Shown in pieces: positions 1-20,016 of a stretch of 64,000 nt of DNA (its first letter is position 1; every line of letters starts with the position of its first letter). Origin of the DNA: Nitrospirota bacterium (lineage in GTDB: Bacteria; Nitrospirota; Thermodesulfovibrionia; UBA6902); NCBI GenBank assembly GCA_016234115.1, contig JACRHD010000012.1:1-64000 (forward strand), written 5' to 3'. The notes under the pieces are model-generated. The model saw only the letters and a program-made list of their open reading frames with translations, had not been told where the DNA came from and did not search any database. Both the position numbers and the translations under genes were made by a program.

Positions 1-717
1 GCGTGACTTCCTGTTGCAGGTCCCGTTGCTTCTATCGCTGTTGTATGACATGCAGAGCAGCCGTTGCCTGTTGTTCCCCATGTCGGCGTCGTCACCGTGC
101 AGGGTCCGTACACATTGGCATGACAGCTTGCAGTTGAACAGGTCGTAGCCGCGCTTCCCTTCGCCTTATTGTCCGTATAGCCGACATTGGCTGTGTCTAT
201 GTCTCCGTCCGCATGCTCCGTTGACGGCTTTGTCGTCGATGTTGTTCCCTCGTTATGACACAGCGTACAATCCGTCTGATTATGTTCTGCGTGACTGCCT
301 GTTGCCGGTCCGGTCGCCGCTATCGCCGTCGTGTGACATGCCGAGCATCCGTTGCCCGTCGATCCCCATAGAGGTGTTGTCACGCTCCCCGCTCCGTATA
401 CATTTGCGTGACAGCTTGCCGTTGAACAAGATTCGGGCGCGCTGCCTTTGACCTTGTTGTCCGTATAGCCGACATTGGCTGTGTCAATATCTCCGTCTGC
501 ATGCTCCGTTGGCGGTTTCGTTGTAGACGTCGTGCCTGCGTTATGGCAGAGCGTACAATCTGTCTGATTATGAAAGGCATGGCTGCCGGTTGCAGGGCCT
601 GTTGTTCCTATAGCAGTTGTATGACACGCCGAACAGCCGTTGCCCGTGCTGCCCCATGTCGGTGTTGTTGCTGTTCCGGCTCCGTACACGTTTGCGTGAC
701 AGCTTGCAGTTGAACAA
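1..717 (-). repeat. Tandem 288-bp repeats inside the cytochrome gene
   Basis: The segment around CSTASCHANVYG recurs with a period of exactly 288 nt (96 residues): the same landmark lies at 118, 406 and 694. Each unit carries three haem motifs (CX4CH, CXXCH, CXXCH). The array continues off the left edge, so the copy number is unknown. Above about 717 the similarity stops. Confidence 0.9.
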
Positions 718-2021
718 GTGCCGTAATTATTACCGCGCGCGCCGCCGGCGCTGTATGTGTTTGCTACATCGATTAATGCGTTCACGTGATTAGCTGAATT
801 ATAATTAGAAGCGTCATTTGCCGCTCCTGTATGACAATCTCCACAACCATTGACTTCCGTAATACCCAGATGCTCGTCGTGGCCGCCGCTGGTCAACCCT
901 GAAGCTTCTGTTACTCTGTGGCAGTCTCCGCATGTTACCGTACTGTCCCAAACCGGATTAGCGTATGTCGGCGTTGCGGAATTCGGATCCGTGGTCGACT
1001 GCCCTGTACTATGACAGTAAATCGAACTACATGTCTTGGCGCCCGTCGGCGGGAAGATTACAGTAGTCGCGGGATTTGTTATTAATGCATCATATAAAAC
1101 GCCCACCTGCCCGTCATAGCTGCCGCCTTGCGCCGCGCCTCCAAACAGATGGAACCCCATGGATATAGACGGAGACCCGCCGTCATTGTGCACGCCCGCA
1201 GGGATATTATCATAATGACATGTGTCGCAAGTGTATGACTTTCCATTAACATGCAGATTATGCGCTCCCGCTGTCGTTGAGCCTGTAGATGTATTTACAA
1301 GCGTGCCGGGATCGATCGGCGGCTGTCCGTGACAGGCTGTACACGACGATAAGGAGGGGACAAAACCCGTCCTGTGAGAATGACAGAGTGTGCAATCCGT
1401 CGCGTTATTATGGTTCTTATCCGCCTGGCCGCTTGCGTTATACCGGTGATAACTCGTAATGGTGTGACAAACCTCGCAGACCCTTGTTGAGGATGAATGA
1501 TTATCAGAGTCGTCACCCAGCGCATATGGAGCGCTTCCCTGAATGCCTGTGAGATATCTGAAATCAACAATACTGCCCGGAAGTGTTCCGCTCTGCGCAG
1601 CGATATTCTGCTTTATAAGATAAATATTAGTCGTGTCATGAGATGTATGACACGTTGTGCAGACAAACTGGCCGTATTGGCCTCCCGCAACGCCCCATCC
1701 GCTGCTGCCCTCCCATTTTCCCGGGGTCCATATTCCCCCGTTGGACGAGCATGCCGTCTTCGTTTTATATACAGTATTGGAGCAGGCGCCTGCGATTTCA
1801 GAGCTGTGCATCTTGATCGCGTTGTCCCAGTTGGCCTGGTCAAAGCCCACCTCTCCGGGAGACGGTGTATTAGTGTTTGTTCTGTGGCATCCCTCGCAGA
1901 GTTCGCCTTGAGAACGCTTAAGTATATTGCCGTCTCCAGGTTCCGCTTCAGAAGAGACGGAGAAAAGAAGGACAGAGGCTATGCACATCGTTGTCAGGAA
2001 AATAGTGATTTTACGATTCAT
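1..2021 (-). CDS. Large multihaem c-type cytochrome with CX4CH/CXXCH repeats (3' end beyond window)
   Basis: The frame is open from ATG 2021 to the window edge (at least 673 residues), so the C-terminus is missing. The N-terminus is a signal peptide (basic MNRK, hydrophobic core, SSEAEP region). I read 17 haem motifs: 13 CXXCH (CEGCH, CTTCH, CEVCH, CTLCH, CTACH, CDTCH and others) and four CX4CH (CSSIYCH once, CSTASCH three times). The CSTASCH-CSACH-CTLCH block matches the Geobacter-type CX4CH...CXXCH domain (TIGR01904/PF09698), typical of exported cytochromes with many haems. It is the last visible gene of operon A, 14 nt after the preceding cytochrome gene. No Shine-Dalgarno is seen, only a 12-A tract whose last A belongs to the ATG. 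An extracellular or outer-surface electron carrier is likely; the total haem number is unknown. Confidence 0.9.
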   Translation of the reverse strand, partial: MNRKITIFLTTMCIASVLLFSVSSEAEPGDGNILKRSQGELCEGCHRTNTNTPSPGEVGFDQANWDNAIKMHSSEIAGACSNTVYKTKTACSSNGGIWTPGKWEGSSGWGVAGGQYGQFVCTTCHTSHDTTNIYLIKQNIAAQSGTLPGSIVDFRYLTGIQGSAPYALGDDSDNHSSSTRVCEVCHTITSYHRYNASGQADKNHNNATDCTLCHSHRTGFVPSLSSCTACHGQPPIDPGTLVNTSTGSTTAGAHNLHVNGKSYTCDTCHYDNIPAGVHNDGGSPSISMGFHLFGGAAQGGSYDGQVGVLYDALITNPATTVIFPPTGAKTCSSIYCHSTGQSTTDPNSATPTYANPVWDSTVTCGDCHRVTEASGLTSGGHDEHLGITEVNGCGDCHTGAANDASNYNSANHVNALIDVANTYSAGGARGNNYGTCSTASCHANVYGAGTATTPTWGSTGNGCSACHTTAIGTTGPATGSHAFHNQTDCTLCHNAGTTSTTKPPTEHADGDIDTANVGYTDNKVKGSAPESCSTASCHANVYGAGSVTTPLWGSTGNGCSACHTTAIAATGPATGSHAEHNQTDCTLCHNEGTTSTTKPSTEHADGDIDTANVGYTDNKAKGSAATTCSTASCHANVYGPCTVTTPTWGTTGNGCSACHTTAIEATGPATGSH

Positions 2022-3309: not shown

Positions 3310-6300
3310 TCATTTGATTAGTATACCAAAATCTGCGTTTACTCCCCGCAGAGATTCAAATACAGTAATGTCCGCGGGAGTGCCGCTGCCGCTCGGGAAT
3401 GTTTTCAATAACGCCGGATTGGCAGCCTGATCGCCCATACCCGTAAGGAGGTCCATCTCGCCGTCGCCGTCGATATCCATCGCCGAAAGAGTCGGAGCAG
3501 ACCCGCCGCCGGCAAAAGCCGTCATCGGGCCGCTTACATCAACGAGACTTGCATCCATAAACCTGACGAGTGAGTCAGTACCGTCCGTATAACCAAGAGC
3601 TATGTCCTCCGTGGCCCCGCCACCCAGATTAAGCGCGGAAACAGTCGAACCGAGAGGATATGACCCGGAAGCTGAAAGTGTCTGGTTCATAAGCGCATCC
3701 AATGTGTACACGTTAACAGTATTAGTGCTGCCGTCGCCCGTCATGAAAGATATTATTAATTCCAGATTGCCTGCGCCGTCCAGCTCTCCGACGGCGATAT
3801 TGGCAGGCGCTGTAACCGGCGCTCCGTTCATGAAGGAGAAGCCGCCTATCTGCGTCAGCGAATAATCAATACCTGCGCCGTATATCCCTATCGTGTGCGT
3901 CAGCATATCCGAGGAGAGACTGCTCATAACAACCTCGTCTTTCCCGTCTCCATTGATATCGCCCGCAACTACTGACGCGCCGTAGACGGTGTTCGCAATC
4001 GAGACAAGCGAAGATAAGGTCGTTCCGATGTAATTGTATACTTTAAGCTGAGCCTGGTTCGTCGAGCCGTTTCCGGGAGCGACTATGACCTCGTAGCTGC
4101 CGTCTCCGAGCAGGTCTCCCATCGCGACTCTTGCGCCGTAAGATGTAGAGAGGGTCTGGAATTCACTGACCAAACCGCCGCTCAGATCAATTAGTCTTAC
4201 TACTGCATCGTTGGCTGCATCCGGACCTTTTGCAGCGGCTATCACACTCTCCGGAGTTGTTCCGGCCAATGCGCCCGTAAAATTCTGCGCAAAGTCGGCG
4301 TCGCTTATCGTCACAACCTTTGAAGCCGGCGTAAAGGTGTATCCCGCCTTGGACGGCGTCAATGTGTATGTTCCGATGCCCAGGCCGGATATTGTATAAG
4401 TCCCGGTCGTGGTCGTGGTCGCTGTCTTGTTCGTTGTCAGGCCGCCGCCGCTTAAGGTCATAACAACACTCGATATAGCGATGTTGCCCGACGTCTTGAC
4501 CGTGCCTGTTAAGGCAAAGCTATTGAAGTCCACTCCTGTTATATTGGCGGTATCCACTGTCACGTCCCGGCTCGGCGGTGTAAATACATAACCGGTCCTG
4601 GTCGGCGTCACTGTGTAATTGCCCACAGGCACGTCGTTAATTGTGTAGCTGCCGCTTGTAGTCGTTGTCGCTGTTTTGTTTGTACCGCCTATAGAAATCT
4701 TCACAGTCACGCTTGTGACGCCGGACCCGCTTCCGGTTGTCACCGAGCCGCTTATAGAGTACACCTGCACAGTAAAGTTCTCCGTGGCGTCCGCGCCGCT
4801 TACAGTCACGCTCGCCGGTGTAAATGTATATCCCGCCTTGGTCGGAGTCAGAGTGTATGTGCCGTTGCCCAGTCCTGAGATTGTATAAGTCCCTGTCGTG
4901 GTCGTGGTCGCTGTCTTGTTCGATGTCAGGCCGCCGCCGCTTAAGGTCATAAGAACACCCGTAAGCGAGACATCGCTTGATGTCTTTACCGTACCTGATA
5001 CGGTAAAGCTGTTAAAGTTCACACCTGTTACGGCAGCGACGTCAACAGTCACAGCCTGACTGGCAGGTGTAAAGACATATCCGGCCTTGCCCGCAGATAT
5101 CGTGTAATTGCCCGGAGGCACATCGGCAATCGTGTAACTGCCGCTTGCTGAAGTTGTTGCGGTTTTATTAGTTCCGCCGATGCTGATTGTCATGGTCGCG
5201 CTTGAGATACCCGTTCCACCGCCGGTCGTCACAGAACCGCTGATGGAGTATACCTGCACGGAAACATCCTGAATCACATCATCATTGTTTATAATCACCG
5301 TATGCGGCGCAAATGTATAACCTGCCTTGACCAGAGTCACCGTGTATGTGCCGTTACAGAGACCGACGAATGTATAAGCCCCTGTCGTGGTCGTTGTCGA
5401 AGTCTTGTTAGCTGTCAGGCCGCCGCCGCTCAGGGTCACGGCAACACCCGACATTACGGTCCCTGTAGATGTACTGACGGTACCGGTCAAGTTAAAGCTC
5501 TTAAAGTCCACGCCTGTTACATTGGCGGCTGCAACTGTCACGGCATGACTTGCCGGCGTAAAGCAATATCCACTCTTGCTCGGCGTCACCGTGTAATCTC
5601 CTACCGGCACATCGGTAATCGTGTAACTGCCGTCTGTTGCCGTTGTAGTTGTCTTGCTTGTAGTGCCGATAGTAATCGTCATGGTCGCGCTCGAGATGCC
5701 GACGCCGCCGCCTGTTGTCACAGAACCGCTGATTGAAAAGACCTGATCGGTAAAGTCCTGCGTCAGGTCCGCATTGTTAATGGTCACGCTCACAGGCTCA
5801 AAACTGTATCCCGTCTTGGTCGGTGTCAGCGTGTATGTGCCGTTGCCCAGACCTGCGATTGAATATGTCCCGCTCGTGCTCGTGGTCGCTGTCTTGTTCG
5901 TTGTCAGGCCGCCGCCGCTTAAAGTCATGAGAACACCCGAAATAGCGACATTATTTGATGTCTTGACAGTTCCCGATAAGGTAAAGCTATTGAAGTTCAC
6001 GCCTGTTACATCGGCGGAGGCTATTGTTACAGCCTGACTTACCGGCGCAAAGACATAACCGGCCTTACTCGGCGTCACTGTGTAGCTGCCCGAAGGCACA
6101 TCGGTAATCGTGTAACTGCCGTCCGCAGCCGTTGTCGCAGTCTTGTTTGTAGTGCCGATAGTAATCGTCATGATCACTCCTGAGATGCCTGCGCCGGCGC
6201 CTGTTGTCGCAGAACCGCTTATTGAATAACCCTGCATCCCGATGTTTTGAACGACGTCCGCATCGCTGACAGTAACGCTTATCGGTTCAAAGGTATATCC

Positions 6301-9300
6301 CGGCTTGGTCGGCGTAAGCGTGTATGCGCCGTTACCCAGACCGGAGATTGTATAAGCGCCGCTCGTGCTCGTTGTGACTGCCTTGTTCGCTGTCATGCCT
6401 CCGCCGCTTAAGGTCATCAGGACACCTGAAATGGCGACATTGTTCAACGTCTTGACGTATCCCGATAAGGTAAAGCTCTTGATGTTCACGCCGGTTACAT
6501 TTGTGCCGGCTACTGTCACTACCTGGCTTGCGGGTGTAAAGACATAAGCTGTCTTGGTCGCCGTCACTGTATAATTACCCGGAGGTAAATCGCTTAGAAT
6601 ATAACTGCCGTTTGTTGCCGTCGTAACAGTTTTTGTCGTAGTGCCTATCATCGTCTTCACGGACACGCCGGATATACCCACCCCTCCTCCTGTTGTCACA
6701 GAACCGCTGATTGAGTAAACCTGCGAACCGACATTCACTACAGCATCCGCGCCGCTTACAGTCACGCTCACCGGCGTAAAGGTATATCCTGTCTTAGTCG
6801 GAGTCAGCGTGTATGTACCGTTGCCCAGACCGGCGATTGAATAAGCCCCGGTCGCGGTCGTTGTTGCTATCTTGTTCGTTGTAAGTCCGCCGCCGCTTAG
6901 GGTCATACGCACACCCGAAATAGCGACATTGGTCGATGTCTTGACCGTGCCCGATAACGTAAAGCTATTGAAGTTCACCCCCGTCGCAGCAGCATCCGTG
7001 ACAGTCACAGCCTGACTTGCCGGCGTAAAGACATAAGCAGCCTTGGTTGCTGTCACTGTGTAAGTGCCTGGAGGCACACCGGTAATCGTGTAACTTCCGT
7101 TTGTCGCCGTTGTCGCCGTCTTGCTTGTAGTGCCGATAGTAATACTCATGGTCACGCTCGATATGCCTACGCCGCTGCCTGAAGTCGCGAAACCGCTGAT
7201 CGAGTAACTCTGCAAAGAAATGGGCACTATCACGTCATTACCGTTTACAATCACGGTAACAGGCAAAAAGCTGTAGCCTACTTTGGTCGGAGTCAGCGTG
7301 TACGTGCCATTGCAAAGACCGGGGAATGTAAATTCCCCGGACGTGGTCGTTGTCGAAGTCTTGTTAGTTGTCAGGCCACCGCCGCTCAGGGTCACAAGAA
7401 CACCCGTAATGGCGACATTGTTCGATGTCTTGACCGTGCCTGATATTGTAAAGCTCTTAAAGTTCACGCCGGTCACGCCGGCAGCATCTATAATTACGTC
7501 GCTCTGACTGGCCGGTGTAAAGCAGTAACCCGCCTTGCTCGGCGTCACTACGTAATTGCCTGGAGGCACATCGTTAATCGTGTAACTGCCGTCTGTTGCC
7601 GTTGTAGCCGTTTTACTTGAGCCGCCAATGCTGATTGACATGGTCACGCCTGATATGCCCGTCAGGGATCCCGTCGTTACAGAACCGCCGATAGAGTAAA
7701 CCGGCACAACAAAGTTCTCTGTGACATCCGCGCCGCTTACAGTCACGCTCACCGGCGTAAAGGCATATCCTGCCTTTGTCGGCGTCAGCGTGTATGTGCC
7801 GTCGCCCAGACCTGTTATTGTATAAATTCCGCTCGAGTTCGAAGACGTTGTCTTGTTCGTTGTCATGCCGCCGCCGCTCAGGGTCATAAGAACACCCGTA
7901 ATGGCGACATTGTTCGATGTCTTGACCGTGCCCGATATTGAAAAGCTCTTAAAGTTCACACCTATTACATTGGCGGAACCTACTGTCACGGACCGGTTTG
8001 CAGGTGTAAATACATAACCGCTCTTGCTCGGCGTCACCGTGTAGCTGCCTGAGGGCACATCGACAATCGAGTAACTGCCGTTTGTGGCCGTTGTTGCTGT
8101 TTTGGTTGTAGTGCCGATAGTAATCGTCATGGTCACGCCCGAGATACCGGCATTGCTGCCTGTTGTCGCATAGCCGCTGATTGTATAAACCGGCGCGACA
8201 AAGTTCTGAATGACATTCGCACTGGTTACAGTCACGTTAGCCGGTGTAAAGGTATATCCCGCCCTGGCCGGCGTCACCGTATACGAGCCTGGAAGTATGT
8301 CGGAAAATATATAAGCGCCTGTAGAGTTCGTCGGGGACGTTGTCTTGCTTACGGAAGCCCCGTTGGAAGTCGTGCCGGACAGAGTCAATACTACGCCGGA
8401 GAGGTTTACGCCGCTGGACGTAGCCACGCCGCCGGACACAGTATAAGATGAAGCGCTGAAGTTCTGCGATGTCAGGTCCGTCCCGCTTATTACGACACTC
8501 AGCGGGCCCGTAAACGTAAAACCTGCTGCTGAAGCCGTGAGCGTATAAGATCCGTCGGGCGCATTGTTAATCGAATAATGGCCGATGCTGTCCGTTGTAG
8601 CGGAAAGGGTCGCGGGACCGGTCAGCGTCACAAGGACGTCCTGAATTGCCGCGCCGCCGGCAGATGTTACACTCCCCGAGATTGACGAGAAGTATGAAAT
8701 ATCGAATGCCTCGATCCGAAGGTTATCGGAATTTGTCACGTACATTGTCGGCCCGTCGAGCGCCACATCCATAGGGATTCTCAGGAGACCTGCGCCCGAG
8801 CCGTACGACCCTATAAAGGTAACGAATGCGCCGGTTGATGTGAAGACCTCTACAGTGCTCTGATATGAGTCCGTAACATAAATATATCCGTCCATGACGA
8901 ATACCCCCTGCGGTCTCGTCAGTTTGCCGTTGCCGCTGCCGAAGCTCCCTATCGACCTTATATAAGTGCCGGTCAAATTAAAAACCTGGATCCGCCCATT
9001 GATTTGATCGACAACGTAAATCTGCTGAGTTGTATCGTCGCAAGCTATACCGGCCGGAAAATTGAACTGGCCGCTGCCGGCGCCGAAGGACCCAATAGAT
9101 GATACGTACGCCCCGGTGGAGGCATTATAAACTTTCACTATATTATTGACGCTGTCGGTAACGTATACATTTCCGTTTTGAGACACGGCAATGTCCCCCG
9201 GATAACCGAATTCGCCGGCGCCGGCGCCTAACTCTCCGACATATTGAAAGCTGCCGCCGTTAAGGTCATAAAAGCTCACTCTTCCATCTCCCGAATCGCC

Positions 9301-9594
9301 GACAAACAACCTGCCGCTGCCGTCCACGGCAACAGACAAGGGGGTATCAAAACCGGTAATCTCACTAACAAGGGCCCCGCTCTGATTATATTCAAGAACG
9401 CTCCCGGACGAAGGTGAAGAGACAAATATATTGTGGGTCGCGGAATCCACAGCGATTCTTATCGGTTCAACACCCGTGGGGATCTCTCCAAGGTAGGTCG
9501 CTGATATGGTGCCGCCAAATGCCTGGCCTAACTGCAAGCCCAGAACTAAAATGACAAGAGTTGACAATACAACAAGACCTCTTTTATATAGCAT
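3310..9594 (-). CDS. Giant exported protein: NHL beta-propeller, 18 carboxypeptidase-regulatory-like repeats, FG-GAP-like C-terminus
   Basis: About 2,094 residues. Order: signal peptide (MLYKRG, hydrophobic to about residue 28); NHL propeller with repeated (V/I)YVTDS...(V/I)F motifs (about 8700-9540); 18 beta-sandwich modules of about 82 residues with SISG..., GSYTI and YTVTP..GY.FTP motifs (about 4276-8690); then repeated GD(I/L)NGDGKDE-type FG-GAP/VCBS calcium-binding blades (3310-4275). Start 9594 is chosen because AAGGAG lies 4 nt upstream. An in-frame ATG at 9651 would sit at the predicted transcription start of the sigma-54 promoter. No C-terminal sorting signal is seen, so anchoring or release is unclear. 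It is the first gene of operon A, ahead of two multihaem cytochromes. A surface scaffold or adhesin is inferred. Confidence 0.88.
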   Translation of the reverse strand: MLYKRGLVVLSTLVILVLGLQLGQAFGGTISATYLGEIPTGVEPIRIAVDSATHNIFVSSPSSGSVLEYNQSGALVSEITGFDTPLSVAVDGSGRLFVGDSGDGRVSFYDLNGGSFQYVGELGAGAGEFGYPGDIAVSQNGNVYVTDSVNNIVKVYNASTGAYVSSIGSFGAGSGQFNFPAGIACDDTTQQIYVVDQINGRIQVFNLTGTYIRSIGSFGSGNGKLTRPQGVFVMDGYIYVTDSYQSTVEVFTSTGAFVTFIGSYGSGAGLLRIPMDVALDGPTMYVTNSDNLRIEAFDISYFSSISGSVTSAGGAAIQDVLVTLTGPATLSATTDSIGHYSINNAPDGSYTLTASAAGFTFTGPLSVVISGTDLTSQNFSASSYTVSGGVATSSGVNLSGVVLTLSGTTSNGASVSKTTSPTNSTGAYIFSDILPGSYTVTPARAGYTFTPANVTVTSANVIQNFVAPVYTISGYATTGSNAGISGVTMTITIGTTTKTATTATNGSYSIVDVPSGSYTVTPSKSGYVFTPANRSVTVGSANVIGVNFKSFSISGTVKTSNNVAITGVLMTLSGGGMTTNKTTSSNSSGIYTITGLGDGTYTLTPTKAGYAFTPVSVTVSGADVTENFVVPVYSIGGSVTTGSLTGISGVTMSISIGGSSKTATTATDGSYTINDVPPGNYVVTPSKAGYCFTPASQSDVIIDAAGVTGVNFKSFTISGTVKTSNNVAITGVLVTLSGGGLTTNKTSTTTTSGEFTFPGLCNGTYTLTPTKVGYSFLPVTVIVNGNDVIVPISLQSYSISGFATSGSGVGISSVTMSITIGTTSKTATTATNGSYTITGVPPGTYTVTATKAAYVFTPASQAVTVTDAAATGVNFNSFTLSGTVKTSTNVAISGVRMTLSGGGLTTNKIATTTATGAYSIAGLGNGTYTLTPTKTGYTFTPVSVTVSGADAVVNVGSQVYSISGSVTTGGGVGISGVSVKTMIGTTTKTVTTATNGSYILSDLPPGNYTVTATKTAYVFTPASQVVTVAGTNVTGVNIKSFTLSGYVKTLNNVAISGVLMTLSGGGMTANKAVTTSTSGAYTISGLGNGAYTLTPTKPGYTFEPISVTVSDADVVQNIGMQGYSISGSATTGAGAGISGVIMTITIGTTNKTATTAADGSYTITDVPSGSYTVTPSKAGYVFAPVSQAVTIASADVTGVNFNSFTLSGTVKTSNNVAISGVLMTLSGGGLTTNKTATTSTSGTYSIAGLGNGTYTLTPTKTGYSFEPVSVTINNADLTQDFTDQVFSISGSVTTGGGVGISSATMTITIGTTSKTTTTATDGSYTITDVPVGDYTVTPSKSGYCFTPASHAVTVAAANVTGVDFKSFNLTGTVSTSTGTVMSGVAVTLSGGGLTANKTSTTTTTGAYTFVGLCNGTYTVTLVKAGYTFAPHTVIINNDDVIQDVSVQVYSISGSVTTGGGTGISSATMTISIGGTNKTATTSASGSYTIADVPPGNYTISAGKAGYVFTPASQAVTVDVAAVTGVNFNSFTVSGTVKTSSDVSLTGVLMTLSGGGLTSNKTATTTTTGTYTISGLGNGTYTLTPTKAGYTFTPASVTVSGADATENFTVQVYSISGSVTTGSGSGVTSVTVKISIGGTNKTATTTTSGSYTINDVPVGNYTVTPTRTGYVFTPPSRDVTVDTANITGVDFNSFALTGTVKTSGNIAISSVVMTLSGGGLTTNKTATTTTTGTYTISGLGIGTYTLTPSKAGYTFTPASKVVTISDADFAQNFTGALAGTTPESVIAAAKGPDAANDAVVRLIDLSGGLVSEFQTLSTSYGARVAMGDLLGDGSYEVIVAPGNGSTNQAQLKVYNYIGTTLSSLVSIANTVYGASVVAGDINGDGKDEVVMSSLSSDMLTHTIGIYGAGIDYSLTQIGGFSFMNGAPVTAPANIAVGELDGAGNLELIISFMTGDGSTNTVNVYTLDALMNQTLSASGSYPLGSTVSALNLGGGATEDIALGYTDGTDSLVRFMDASLVDVSGPMTAFAGGGSAPTLSAMDIDGDGEMDLLTGMGDQAANPALLKTFPSGSGTPADITVFESLRGVNADFGILIK
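4276..8190 (-). repeat. Eight tandem A/B dyads of 489 bp in the giant gene
   Basis: The array is eight alternating module pairs of 163 residues. The GGG codon landmark of module B recurs at 4441, 4930, 5419 and 5908, a 489-nt period. The second dyad from the N-terminus is 3 nt longer, so the array is 3,915 nt. Module A has TIGTT.KTATTA and DVP.G.YTVTPSK; module B has MTLSGGG(L/M)TTNK and GLGNGTYTLTPTK. Two more diverged modules precede the array (8191-8690). Confidence 0.92.
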
Positions 9595-9663
9595 GGATCT
9601 CCTTGTTGAACTGCTGCCACATATTTTCAATATATCCCTCCTTAACTTCATCGTGCCATAGAG

Positions 9664-11331: not shown

Positions 11332-12525
11332 TTATTTCGGATGACAGGATATGCATATCTCAAAAGGGGCGTCGTTCTTGTACCTGAGAATTTTTTTATG
11401 GTCCGAGCTGTGCGGCACGTGACAACTGACGCAGGAAAACCTCTCCCCCTCCCTCTTGGGGTCCGTCTTCCCGCTGACCGGATGGCCGGCTGACGACATC
11501 CCGCTTACAACATGAATACCATTTTTGATTTCAGCGGCCGTATGGCAGGACGTGCACAGGGCAGTCATGGCCTTCAATGTCAATGAAGCGTTCTTGGACG
11601 CATGGGGGTTGTGGCAGGAGAGACACATGCCCGCCTCGACAGGCGGATGGACATTCTTTTTCGTAAAATCCGCATTGTCGTGACACGTAAAACAGAGGTC
11701 CGGGACAGGTGACTGCAGCAGCTTCTCATTGTCCGAATTATGGGGGAAATGACACATCATACACATGCCGTCCTTGACGGGAGGATGCGTCTTCCTGTCC
11801 ATGAATTTGCCCTTGTCGTGACAAGTAAAACAGAGGTCCGGGGCTGTTGACTGCAGCAGCTTCTCGTTGTCGGATTTATGCGGGAAATGACACATAAGAC
11901 ACATGCCGTCCTTGACGGGAGGATGCGTATGTTTATCAATGAATTTGCTCTTGCCGTGACATTTAAAACAAAGTGAGGGCGCTTCGGAAATCAGGAGCCC
12001 GGTCGAATTAGTGGAATGGGGGTCGTGGCATGAAAGGCACATCCCTCCCATTACCGGCGGATGAATGTCCTTGCCCTCGAAGGACTTCCCGTCATGACAG
12101 TTGAAACAGAGCTCGGGCGGCCCGGAGACAAGGAGTTTCGCGTTCTTTGAAGAGTGGGGGTTATGACAGCCGGTGCAGCCCATAGCTATGGCGGCATGGA
12201 CCGTTTTATTCGTGAACCTGGATTTATCATGGCAGTCGTAGCACAGGTCCGGCTGCTCCGAGGAGAGTCCCTTAGTGACGGTGTTTGTCTTTTTATGGGG
12301 CACATCCTCAGCATCGATCCCGGTATGGCACGTGGGACATCCCATCTGCACCGCGGCATGTACGACCTCATTTTTCGCGAGGTCCTCGTGGCACATCAAA
12401 CAGTCGACTTCGCCGTAAACGGGTCCCGCCGTAAGGCCGGTCAAAGAAACGATCATGACAACTGAAATCAGGACAGCGATACCCGCCGCCCTGCCCGGAT
12501 TATTTTTCGCGTCATGCCTTTTCAT
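11332..12525 (-). CDS. Fifteen-haem cytochrome with doubled-CXXCH repeats
   Basis: I count 15 CXXCH motifs in about 397 residues. Most occur in pairs of the form LCF.CH...HPPV..GMC..CH.PH, the doubled-CXXCH arrangement (PF09699). Three central pairs repeat every 46 residues (138 nt; landmarks 11764 and 11902), pointing to recent internal duplication. ATG 12525 gives a good signal peptide (MKRHDAKN, hydrophobic stretch, PVYG before EVDC); upstream in-frame ATGs at 12555 and 12639 give poorer N-termini and the latter overlaps the previous gene. It has the most haems in operon B and is probably a periplasmic or surface electron wire. Confidence 0.88.
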   Translation of the reverse strand: MKRHDAKNNPGRAAGIAVLISVVMIVSLTGLTAGPVYGEVDCLMCHEDLAKNEVVHAAVQMGCPTCHTGIDAEDVPHKKTNTVTKGLSSEQPDLCYDCHDKSRFTNKTVHAAIAMGCTGCHNPHSSKNAKLLVSGPPELCFNCHDGKSFEGKDIHPPVMGGMCLSCHDPHSTNSTGLLISEAPSLCFKCHGKSKFIDKHTHPPVKDGMCLMCHFPHKSDNEKLLQSTAPDLCFTCHDKGKFMDRKTHPPVKDGMCMMCHFPHNSDNEKLLQSPVPDLCFTCHDNADFTKKNVHPPVEAGMCLSCHNPHASKNASLTLKAMTALCTSCHTAAEIKNGIHVVSGMSSAGHPVSGKTDPKREGERFSCVSCHVPHSSDHKKILRYKNDAPFEICISCHPK

Positions 12526-18120: not shown

Positions 18121-20016
18121 TTATCTTCCGCCCCTCAGCAACTTCTCAAACGTCCTTGTCAGTCTCACAAGGACCCTCTGTTCCGTCCTCGGGTCAAGAC
18201 CCGACAGCCTCAATATCTCATACTGCGCGGTCAGGATGACTTTCCGGATATTCCAGTTAAACACCGTATGGACGTCCGTGGTGGACAAGCCGTCCGAATC
18301 CCTGGTGTACGTAGATGAAAGCGTCAGGAACATGCTGCGGGAAAGATAGACGGACGTATTGGAATAGAGTGATCTGACCCAAAAATCAACCGGCTCCGAG
18401 ACGCTTTCCAAGACGTCGGCGCTCTCAACGGCGCTTTTATGTCTTTCCACGTCACTCGCCCCGACATTGATGGAAAACACCGATATGTTCCAGTACAGGT
18501 CGCCCTGGAGTTCATAACCATTTTCCCTGAACGGCTCGACGCCTGACACATCGGAGACGTGATAGAAATTCCTGGAGCTGAAACTCAGGTCTCTCGTAAT
18601 TCTCCCCCTGACGCTCAGTTCGACGCGGTGGGAATCCGTCCTCCCCTCATCGAGAGCGATATTTGAAAAATCATATTTCGTCCAGACAGTTACGGGGCTC
18701 AAATCCGCTCCCAGGCCCAGGCCGACGGCATAATTACCGCCGAGTTCCGTCCGTCCGACCAACGCATTGTTCGTCAGGGTGAACGTCTTTGACAGGAGAT
18801 AATTGAGTTGATTGCCCGCAAAAGTGTTGATGAGGTTTTCACTATTGGCGCGTCCCCAATCGTAATGGAGGGTGACTTCGTCCCTCAATTTCTCGGTGAA
18901 GACCTTATGGTAAATGCCGGAAGCCCCGATTTCATAGTTCTCCGTTATGTCGGAGCTGAAATAGTCGCCCCCGCCCTGCAGCTCAATGATGTCTTTCCTT
19001 TCTTTGCCTGTCCGCTGCGCCCATCTCGTCAGGTTCATCAGGTTCAATGACCCGATACTATTATATTCCGAGAGCGTCGCCCTGTTCAGGATATCCAGCC
19101 TCGCGTCCTTCTTCTCGTCATAGAAATGGAGATCGGCGCCGAGGTCCAGGTCCTGGAACTTGCTCTCCACAAAACCGCCGAAACTATTATATGAGTACTC
19201 CGATCTAAGATCGACATTCCTGTTCGAGGACATCGCCCTGACGTCGAAGCGGTCCGTTTGCGTCTTATCTGAATTGATCAACTCAAAGTTGTAATTATCG
19301 TAATCGAGTGAAAATGTCGGAAAGGCGACAATGTCGCCAATAAATTTAGTTTCGGCTTCAGGCATCTGAGGCTGGATCGAGGGCGCCTCCTTCCCGGCAG
19401 ACCCCTCTTCTTCTTCCTCTTCCTCTTCCTCTTCTTCTTCTTCCGCCTCCTTCTTCTTCCGGGCCTCTAATAACAGCTTCGTCATCCTTTTCTCCTTCTC
19501 CCGCCGTTCGATGATCCCGCGGAAGAGCGGGTTCTCGGCCGGCCTGTACGTAAGGCTGAGGCCGTAGCTCTGTTCCCTGGAATCCTCTGCCGCGCGTTTG
19601 GAATATCTCAGATTGACGGGCTGGGGAAAGTTTCGCAGAAAGCCCCTCGGCGTCTCATTCAAAAGGTTTATACTTGCCGACACGCTCCGGTTGTTAATCG
19701 TGCTGCCGGGACTGTTCATCTCCTGAGAGAAGGAACCATCCAGATCATAGGATATGAGCCTTTTATCCAGGACGAAGCCGTCGAGGCCGAGTTTGTAGGA
19801 ATGTGTAAATCTCTTATCGTCGTCTTCGGAAGCAGAGCTCCATTGTCTGTCGTATATGAGATCCGTCCTGCCTTTAAGCAGATACGCATTTCTGATATAA
19901 CGGGAGGGGGGACCGTAGCCTGCGCAAAAGGCCCTGTCCGGGAAAGCCAGATAAGCGGTCACGGTCAGGAAGGTCAGGAAGGTCAGGAAGTGTGATCTGC
20001 CGTAATTTGTCGTCAC
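18121..20016 (-). CDS. Outer-membrane beta-barrel protein, probable electron-conduit porin
   Basis: 631 residues from a GTG start. A signal peptide (FLTFLTFLTVTAYLAF, ending near RAFCA) is followed by alternating amphipathic strands over the whole length (for example GYELQGDLYWNISVFSINVGA, shown here as its first residues GYELQG), aromatic belts and a final FEKLLRGGR. Around residue 195 there is a run of glutamates (19411-19440), probably in a loop. Its position directly after a PpiC foldase and before cytochromes matches porin-cytochrome conduits, where a barrel holds a multihaem cytochrome across the outer membrane. No sequence family could be assigned with certainty, and a general porin remains possible. 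Confidence 0.7.
   Translation of the reverse strand: MTTNYGRSHFLTFLTFLTVTAYLAFPDRAFCAGYGPPSRYIRNAYLLKGRTDLIYDRQWSSASEDDDKRFTHSYKLGLDGFVLDKRLISYDLDGSFSQEMNSPGSTINNRSVSASINLLNETPRGFLRNFPQPVNLRYSKRAAEDSREQSYGLSLTYRPAENPLFRGIIERREKEKRMTKLLLEARKKKEAEEEEEEEEEEEEEGSAGKEAPSIQPQMPEAETKFIGDIVAFPTFSLDYDNYNFELINSDKTQTDRFDVRAMSSNRNVDLRSEYSYNSFGGFVESKFQDLDLGADLHFYDEKKDARLDILNRATLSEYNSIGSLNLMNLTRWAQRTGKERKDIIELQGGGDYFSSDITENYEIGASGIYHKVFTEKLRDEVTLHYDWGRANSENLINTFAGNQLNYLLSKTFTLTNNALVGRTELGGNYAVGLGLGADLSPVTVWTKYDFSNIALDEGRTDSHRVELSVRGRITRDLSFSSRNFYHVSDVSGVEPFRENGYELQGDLYWNISVFSINVGASDVERHKSAVESADVLESVSEPVDFWVRSLYSNTSVYLSRSMFLTLSSTYTRDSDGLSTTDVHTVFNWNIRKVILTAQYEILRLSGLDPRTEQRVLVRLTRTFEKLLRGGR

Follow-up and report, generated by a model that had tools for sequence, protein, structure and literature searches.

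How an array of similar domains grew is the question raised by a gene in a 64,000-nt stretch of contig JACRHD010000012.1 from a Nitrospirota bacterium (the window), in which eight dyads of A and B modules lie in tandem. From residues shared by dyads four apart, a sequence-only reading had proposed the duplication of an entire four-dyad block. In the 2113-aa product an N-terminal hydrophobic leader and an NHL propeller are followed by 18 CarboxypepD_reg-like modules and then by an FG-GAP-like C-terminus (Table 1). Pfam PF13620 (CarboxypepD_reg) matched 18 stretches of the protein (E 2.4e-153), and single modules A8 and B8 (43.9 and 36.4 bits) both exceeded its gathering cut-off of 32.3. The AlphaFold model of dyad 2 (pLDDT 94.1) is an all-beta, prealbumin-like beta sandwich. 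In the module tree a branch with full support (100/99) separates the A from the B modules, indicating that the dyad is the true unit. The eight dyads (16 modules, about 489 nt per dyad) were thus as first read, except that the array spans 8187-4273 on the reverse strand, 3 bases off the 4276-8190 first given, and that two leading modules, P0 and P1, had been left out of the count. The length of about 1,956 nt ascribed to the four-dyad unit agrees with 1959 nt for dyads 1-4 and 1956 nt for dyads 5-8. Tandem Repeats Finder reported the 489-nt period only; with a maximum period of 500 it is blind to one of 1956 nt. The longest exact repeat within the array is 45 nt, indicating that no duplication was recent, that the assembly of the array is credible, and that short-read collapse or false expansion is unlikely.

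Table 1. Features of the repeat-protein gene, in window positions; G018 is a genome from another genus of the same family.
Feature	Position	Strand	Basis or detail
CDS, 2113 aa, probably secreted	3310..9651	-	ORF, Pfam
N-terminal leader and NHL six-bladed propeller region, aa 1-320	8692..9651	-	PF17170, PF01436
Leading module P0	8446..8691	-	not part of the eight dyads; 1:1 counterpart in G018 orthologue
Leading module P1, B-like	8188..8445	-	counterpart gP1 in G018 orthologue
Dyad 1	7699..8187	-	A1 8187-7945, B1 7944-7699
Dyad 2	7207..7698	-	A2 7698-7453, B2 7452-7207; Cys 710, 780
Dyad 3	6718..7206	-	A3 7206-6964, B3 6963-6718
Dyad 4	6229..6717	-	A4 6717-6475, B4 6474-6229
Dyad 5	5740..6228	-	A5 6228-5986, B5 5985-5740
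Dyad 6	5251..5739	-	A6 5739-5497, B6 5496-5251; Cys 1363, 1432
Dyad 7	4762..5250	-	A7 5250-5008, B7 5007-4762
Dyad 8	4273..4761	-	A8 4761-4519, B8 4518-4273
C-terminal FG-GAP-like domain, aa 1794-2113	3310..4272	-	PF13517, PF01839

Exploring the residues on which the block had been proposed, we found nearly all of them as described. The motif DVPSGSYTVTPSK is present in A1 and A5 only; dyads 2 and 6 are the only two carrying a cysteine in both modules and have DVI near the end of B2 and B6; and dyads 4 and 8 share Val-Lys in A4 and A8 as well as SDAD..QN in B4 and B8. VSGADA is present in dyads 3 and 7 as claimed, but dyad 1 carries VSGADV, so that the last residue alone is private to this pair. 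Residues common to exactly two dyads numbered 10 for pair 2-6, 5 for 4-8, 4 for 1-5 and 2 for 3-7, and their sum of 21 is the highest among all 105 pairings of eight dyads and was reached in none of 2000 column shuffles (mean 7.8, s.d. 2.6). With 2-6 removed, pairs 1-5, 3-7 and 4-8 hold 11 private residues vs 5.9 expected (fraction 0.029). Mean amino-acid identity was 69.1% at an offset of four dyads vs 67.1, 66.3 and 65.9% at offsets 1-3, respectively, while at the nucleotide level the four-apart effect was smaller (74.1 vs 73.2%). After removal of row effects, offset 4 was the best of offsets 1-4 in 93% (protein) and 79% (DNA) of column bootstraps; the proposed pairing was the single best pairing in just 9% (protein) and 3% (DNA) of them. 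Together, the data indicate that an amino-acid excess at offset 4 exists, that it is small and that it is mostly due to pair 2-6.

Analysis of silent sites revealed no four-apart excess among the eight dyads at third positions or at four-fold sites, a comparison of limited power in which the bootstrap interval of the third-position statistic was wide, from -9.4 to +9.6 points for the sum of the four pairs. Identity at four-fold sites was 57.2% for dyads four apart vs 58.3% for the other pairs, reaching 63% in 1-5 and in 2-6, 49% in 3-7 and 54% in 4-8; silent divergence is thus not lower at the higher-order offset. Given that four-fold identity averages 58% vs 32.6% by chance, these sites are informative and unsaturated. 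The internal branch of pair 3-7 was close to zero at third positions.

The module tree joined B2 with B6 strongly (96/97), A1 with A5 weakly (85/62) and B3 with B4 (86/70). A2-A6, A3-A7 and A4-A8 were absent from it, pairs 3-7 and 4-8 were not recovered, and dyads four apart are not all mutual nearest relatives. The best dyad trees united 3 with 4 and 7 with 8, so that clustering of neighbours, named beforehand as the pattern that would speak against a block, is seen for half of the array, while B2-B6 and, weakly, 1-5 remain four apart. Ranking the 105 pairings by their best tree placed the block 5th on protein, 7th on DNA and 23rd on third positions, the top pairing on protein and DNA alike being 1-5, 2-6, 3-4, 7-8. 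Pairings containing 2-6 occupy the top ranks on protein and whole-dyad DNA; among the 15 of them the block is average (5th on amino acids, 7th on nucleotides, 12th on third positions), indicating that the phylogenetic case for the block is the case for 2-6. Support for 2-6 in turn comes from the B module, and A-module DNA does not favour this pair. In AU tests the block topology was not rejected on whole dyads (0.175 on nucleotides, 0.125 on amino acids) and was rejected on B-module DNA (0.031). Two other regular pairings fitted worse than the block: pairing of all neighbours (AU 0.054 on nucleotides, 0.0125 on amino acids), which was rejected on protein, and pairing of dyads two apart (0.005 and 0.0001).

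A permutation test modelled on GENECONV (2000 shuffles) detected overlong shared tracts between dyads 1 and 2 (0/2000 shuffles), 1 and 3 (global p 0.0065) and 2 and 6 (global p 0.009), indicating that the nearest partner of a dyad differs between stretches and that the array is a mosaic. Unequal exchange or gene conversion between dyads would give such a pattern. The tract test was not significant on silent sites alone (41 sites), and hence the shared tracts could partly reflect shared constraint.

Searching with the C-terminal domain, we examined 37 genomes of the family and then a wider genome collection. The family yielded one full orthologue, in another genus (G018:C19), whereas the wider collection gave just weak, partial relatives. 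The orthologue is 1056 aa long and carries 5 modules: P0 and P1, a single A and a single B, and a last module of hybrid type, which shares an extra KV with the end of B8. Compared with the 18 modules of the window this single orthologue has 13 fewer, corresponding to 6.5 dyads, indicating that array length changes. Its surroundings are conserved, with a downstream cytochrome gene matching the window cluster and, upstream, an NHL lipoprotein, a multiheme cytochrome, further cytochromes with an NHL protein, a barrel-like protein and a peptidyl-prolyl isomerase (PPIase). At four-fold sites the window dyads are on average 56% (A-A) and 61% (B-B) identical, whereas the flanking domains of the window protein and the orthologue are 48 and 44% identical. 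The dyads being closer to each other than the flanks of the two species, most growth or homogenisation probably followed the split; the position of the orthologue's gA1 beside A8 in the protein tree (95/87) suggests that some duplication is older. In a cousin (L011), NHL and FG-GAP ends flank BACON-type domains instead of CarboxypepD_reg modules, and from this architecture the middle of the protein may be an exchangeable spacer of variable length.

Four of the six cysteines of the protein lie in the array, two each in dyads 2 and 6 (Table 1). In the dyad 2 model the first occupies the loop of A that follows the fifth strand and links strands 47-54 and 65-70, and the second a turn of B linking strands 122-128 and 131-138; the order of the strands would put both at the A-B junction. 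The likeliest role of the pair in dyads 2 and 6 is that of a disulfide staple joining A to the following B. A cysteine in the same A-type loop, with a second one either in the module that follows or immediately after its own, is also present in the last module of the G018:C19 orthologue (716, 740), and a similar pair occurs in G018:C12 and in L058, which belongs to another family. The G018:C12 case (L030, ~4260-4800, reverse strand) is a second protein with A/B-type modules, the last of which is broken by an apparent frameshift. A DNA pattern for a Cys pair with dyad-like spacing matched dyads 2 and 6 and nothing else among 396 genomes of the phylum, and our literature search found no report of disulfides in these modules.

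The explanation that we favour, with moderate confidence, is a stalk of variable length that expanded through tandem duplications of one or more A/B dyads at a time and that later became a mosaic in which pair 2-6 stands out. The array would then be a spacer of prealbumin-like modules linking the N-terminal NHL end to the C-terminal FG-GAP-like end of a secreted protein encoded within a multiheme-cytochrome gene cluster, and unequal exchange or gene conversion, together with selection on a few residues, would have produced the mosaic and left dyads 2 and 6, with their putative staples, distinct. Duplication of a whole four-dyad block is possible, although silent sites and trees neither require nor favour it. 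In its fuller form, in which the block was duplicated in tandem and later exchange of dyads erased the signal except at residues under selection, we regard it as rather unlikely. It would account for the 21 private residues, for the lead of offset 4 in amino-acid identity and for the unrejected whole-dyad topology, and joint duplication of several domains is the usual growth mode of domain repeats (PMC1553488); yet third and four-fold sites show no four-apart excess, the 3-7 branch is close to zero at third positions, its rank falls to mid-list once 2-6 is granted, and B-module DNA rejects it. The block as originally read overshoots the data, being supported for 2-6 (in the B module) and weakly for 1-5, and not for 3-7 or 4-8 or at silent sites.

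The likeness of dyads 2 and 6 might instead be functional, the disulfide-bearing dyads having been kept or made alike by selection around the Cys pair and sharing no duplication history. We consider this improbable. That the Cys pair of G018:C12 lies on a different background, that the Cys-bearing module hB1 of this protein groups with P1 and gP1 and not with B2/B6, and that A2 and A6 are unpaired in A trees all agree with it, but the clade B2 + B6 + hB1 was not rejected (p 0.28), and both the private residues along the whole of B (V102, S115, F125, T148, I152, I159, S163) and a stretch of 33 identical nt in A (nt columns 92-124) exceed what local selection would need. More doubtful still, and in our view very unlikely, is that disulfide staples recurring at intervals of four dyads lend stiffness to an extracellular, variable-length stalk, so that the spacing of stapled dyads, and not ancestry, would have been kept at an offset of four.

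By Pfam PF13620 and by fold the modules belong with the CarboxypepD_reg / SdrD B / CnaB repeat stalks of surface proteins and pilins, and the PDB neighbours of the dyad 2 model are SdrD B domains (SdrD A2-A3-B1-B2, 10ps), streptococcal and lactobacillar pilins, and NOMO of the BOS complex. Unlike the surface-protein and pilin stalks, the window array is flanked by two propeller-type domains and encoded in a cytochrome cluster, and the protein sequence shows no LPXTG-type C-terminal anchor. Domain-repeat proteins are known to have super-repeats, such as the seven-domain unit of nebulin (Bjorklund et al. 2006, PMC1553488). The window array resembles these in being a tandem array with a multi-domain duplicated unit, here the A/B dyad, and differs in having no clear second period, its four-dyad excess being weak and seen in amino acids only. 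Growth by multi-domain blocks being already established (PMC1553488), such growth would be ordinary here. The case shows that a handful of conspicuous residues in common can point to a block duplication for which silent sites and trees give no support. It is also a useful one in that stalk length (5 vs 18 modules) or domain type varies among relatives, whereas both ends are kept, as are the neighbouring genes in the case of the G018 orthologue.

The gene lies in a multiheme c-type cytochrome cluster (window 1-22240, reverse strand) whose frames carry 13, 5, 15, 4, 7, 7, 4 and 4 CXXCH motifs and which also encodes NHL proteins, a PPIase and, at 18121-20016 (reverse strand), a possible outer-membrane barrel protein that has no Pfam match. 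The cluster is largely conserved in G018 and resembles extracellular electron transfer operons. Partners of methane-oxidising archaea have operons in which multiheme cytochromes, 16- and 26-heme proteins among them, are encoded together with a PPIase and a six-bladed propeller protein (Skennerton et al. 2017, PMC5539420); the window cluster, with its multiheme cytochromes, NHL propeller proteins and PPIase, is like these by gene kinds. Two further tandem repeats were seen, one of 288 nt in 2.5 copies at window 1-718, inside the 13-CXXCH open frame that reaches the contig edge, and one of 138 nt at 11675-11970 within the 15-CXXCH cytochrome gene. The G018 counterpart of the latter is ~116 aa shorter (319 vs 435 aa), suggesting that heme-module number also varies. 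Elsewhere in the genome of the window (L031; G000:C16 27000-46999), CarboxypepD_reg-like modules, 1-4 per protein, are found at the C-terminus of several multicopper-oxidase-like proteins.
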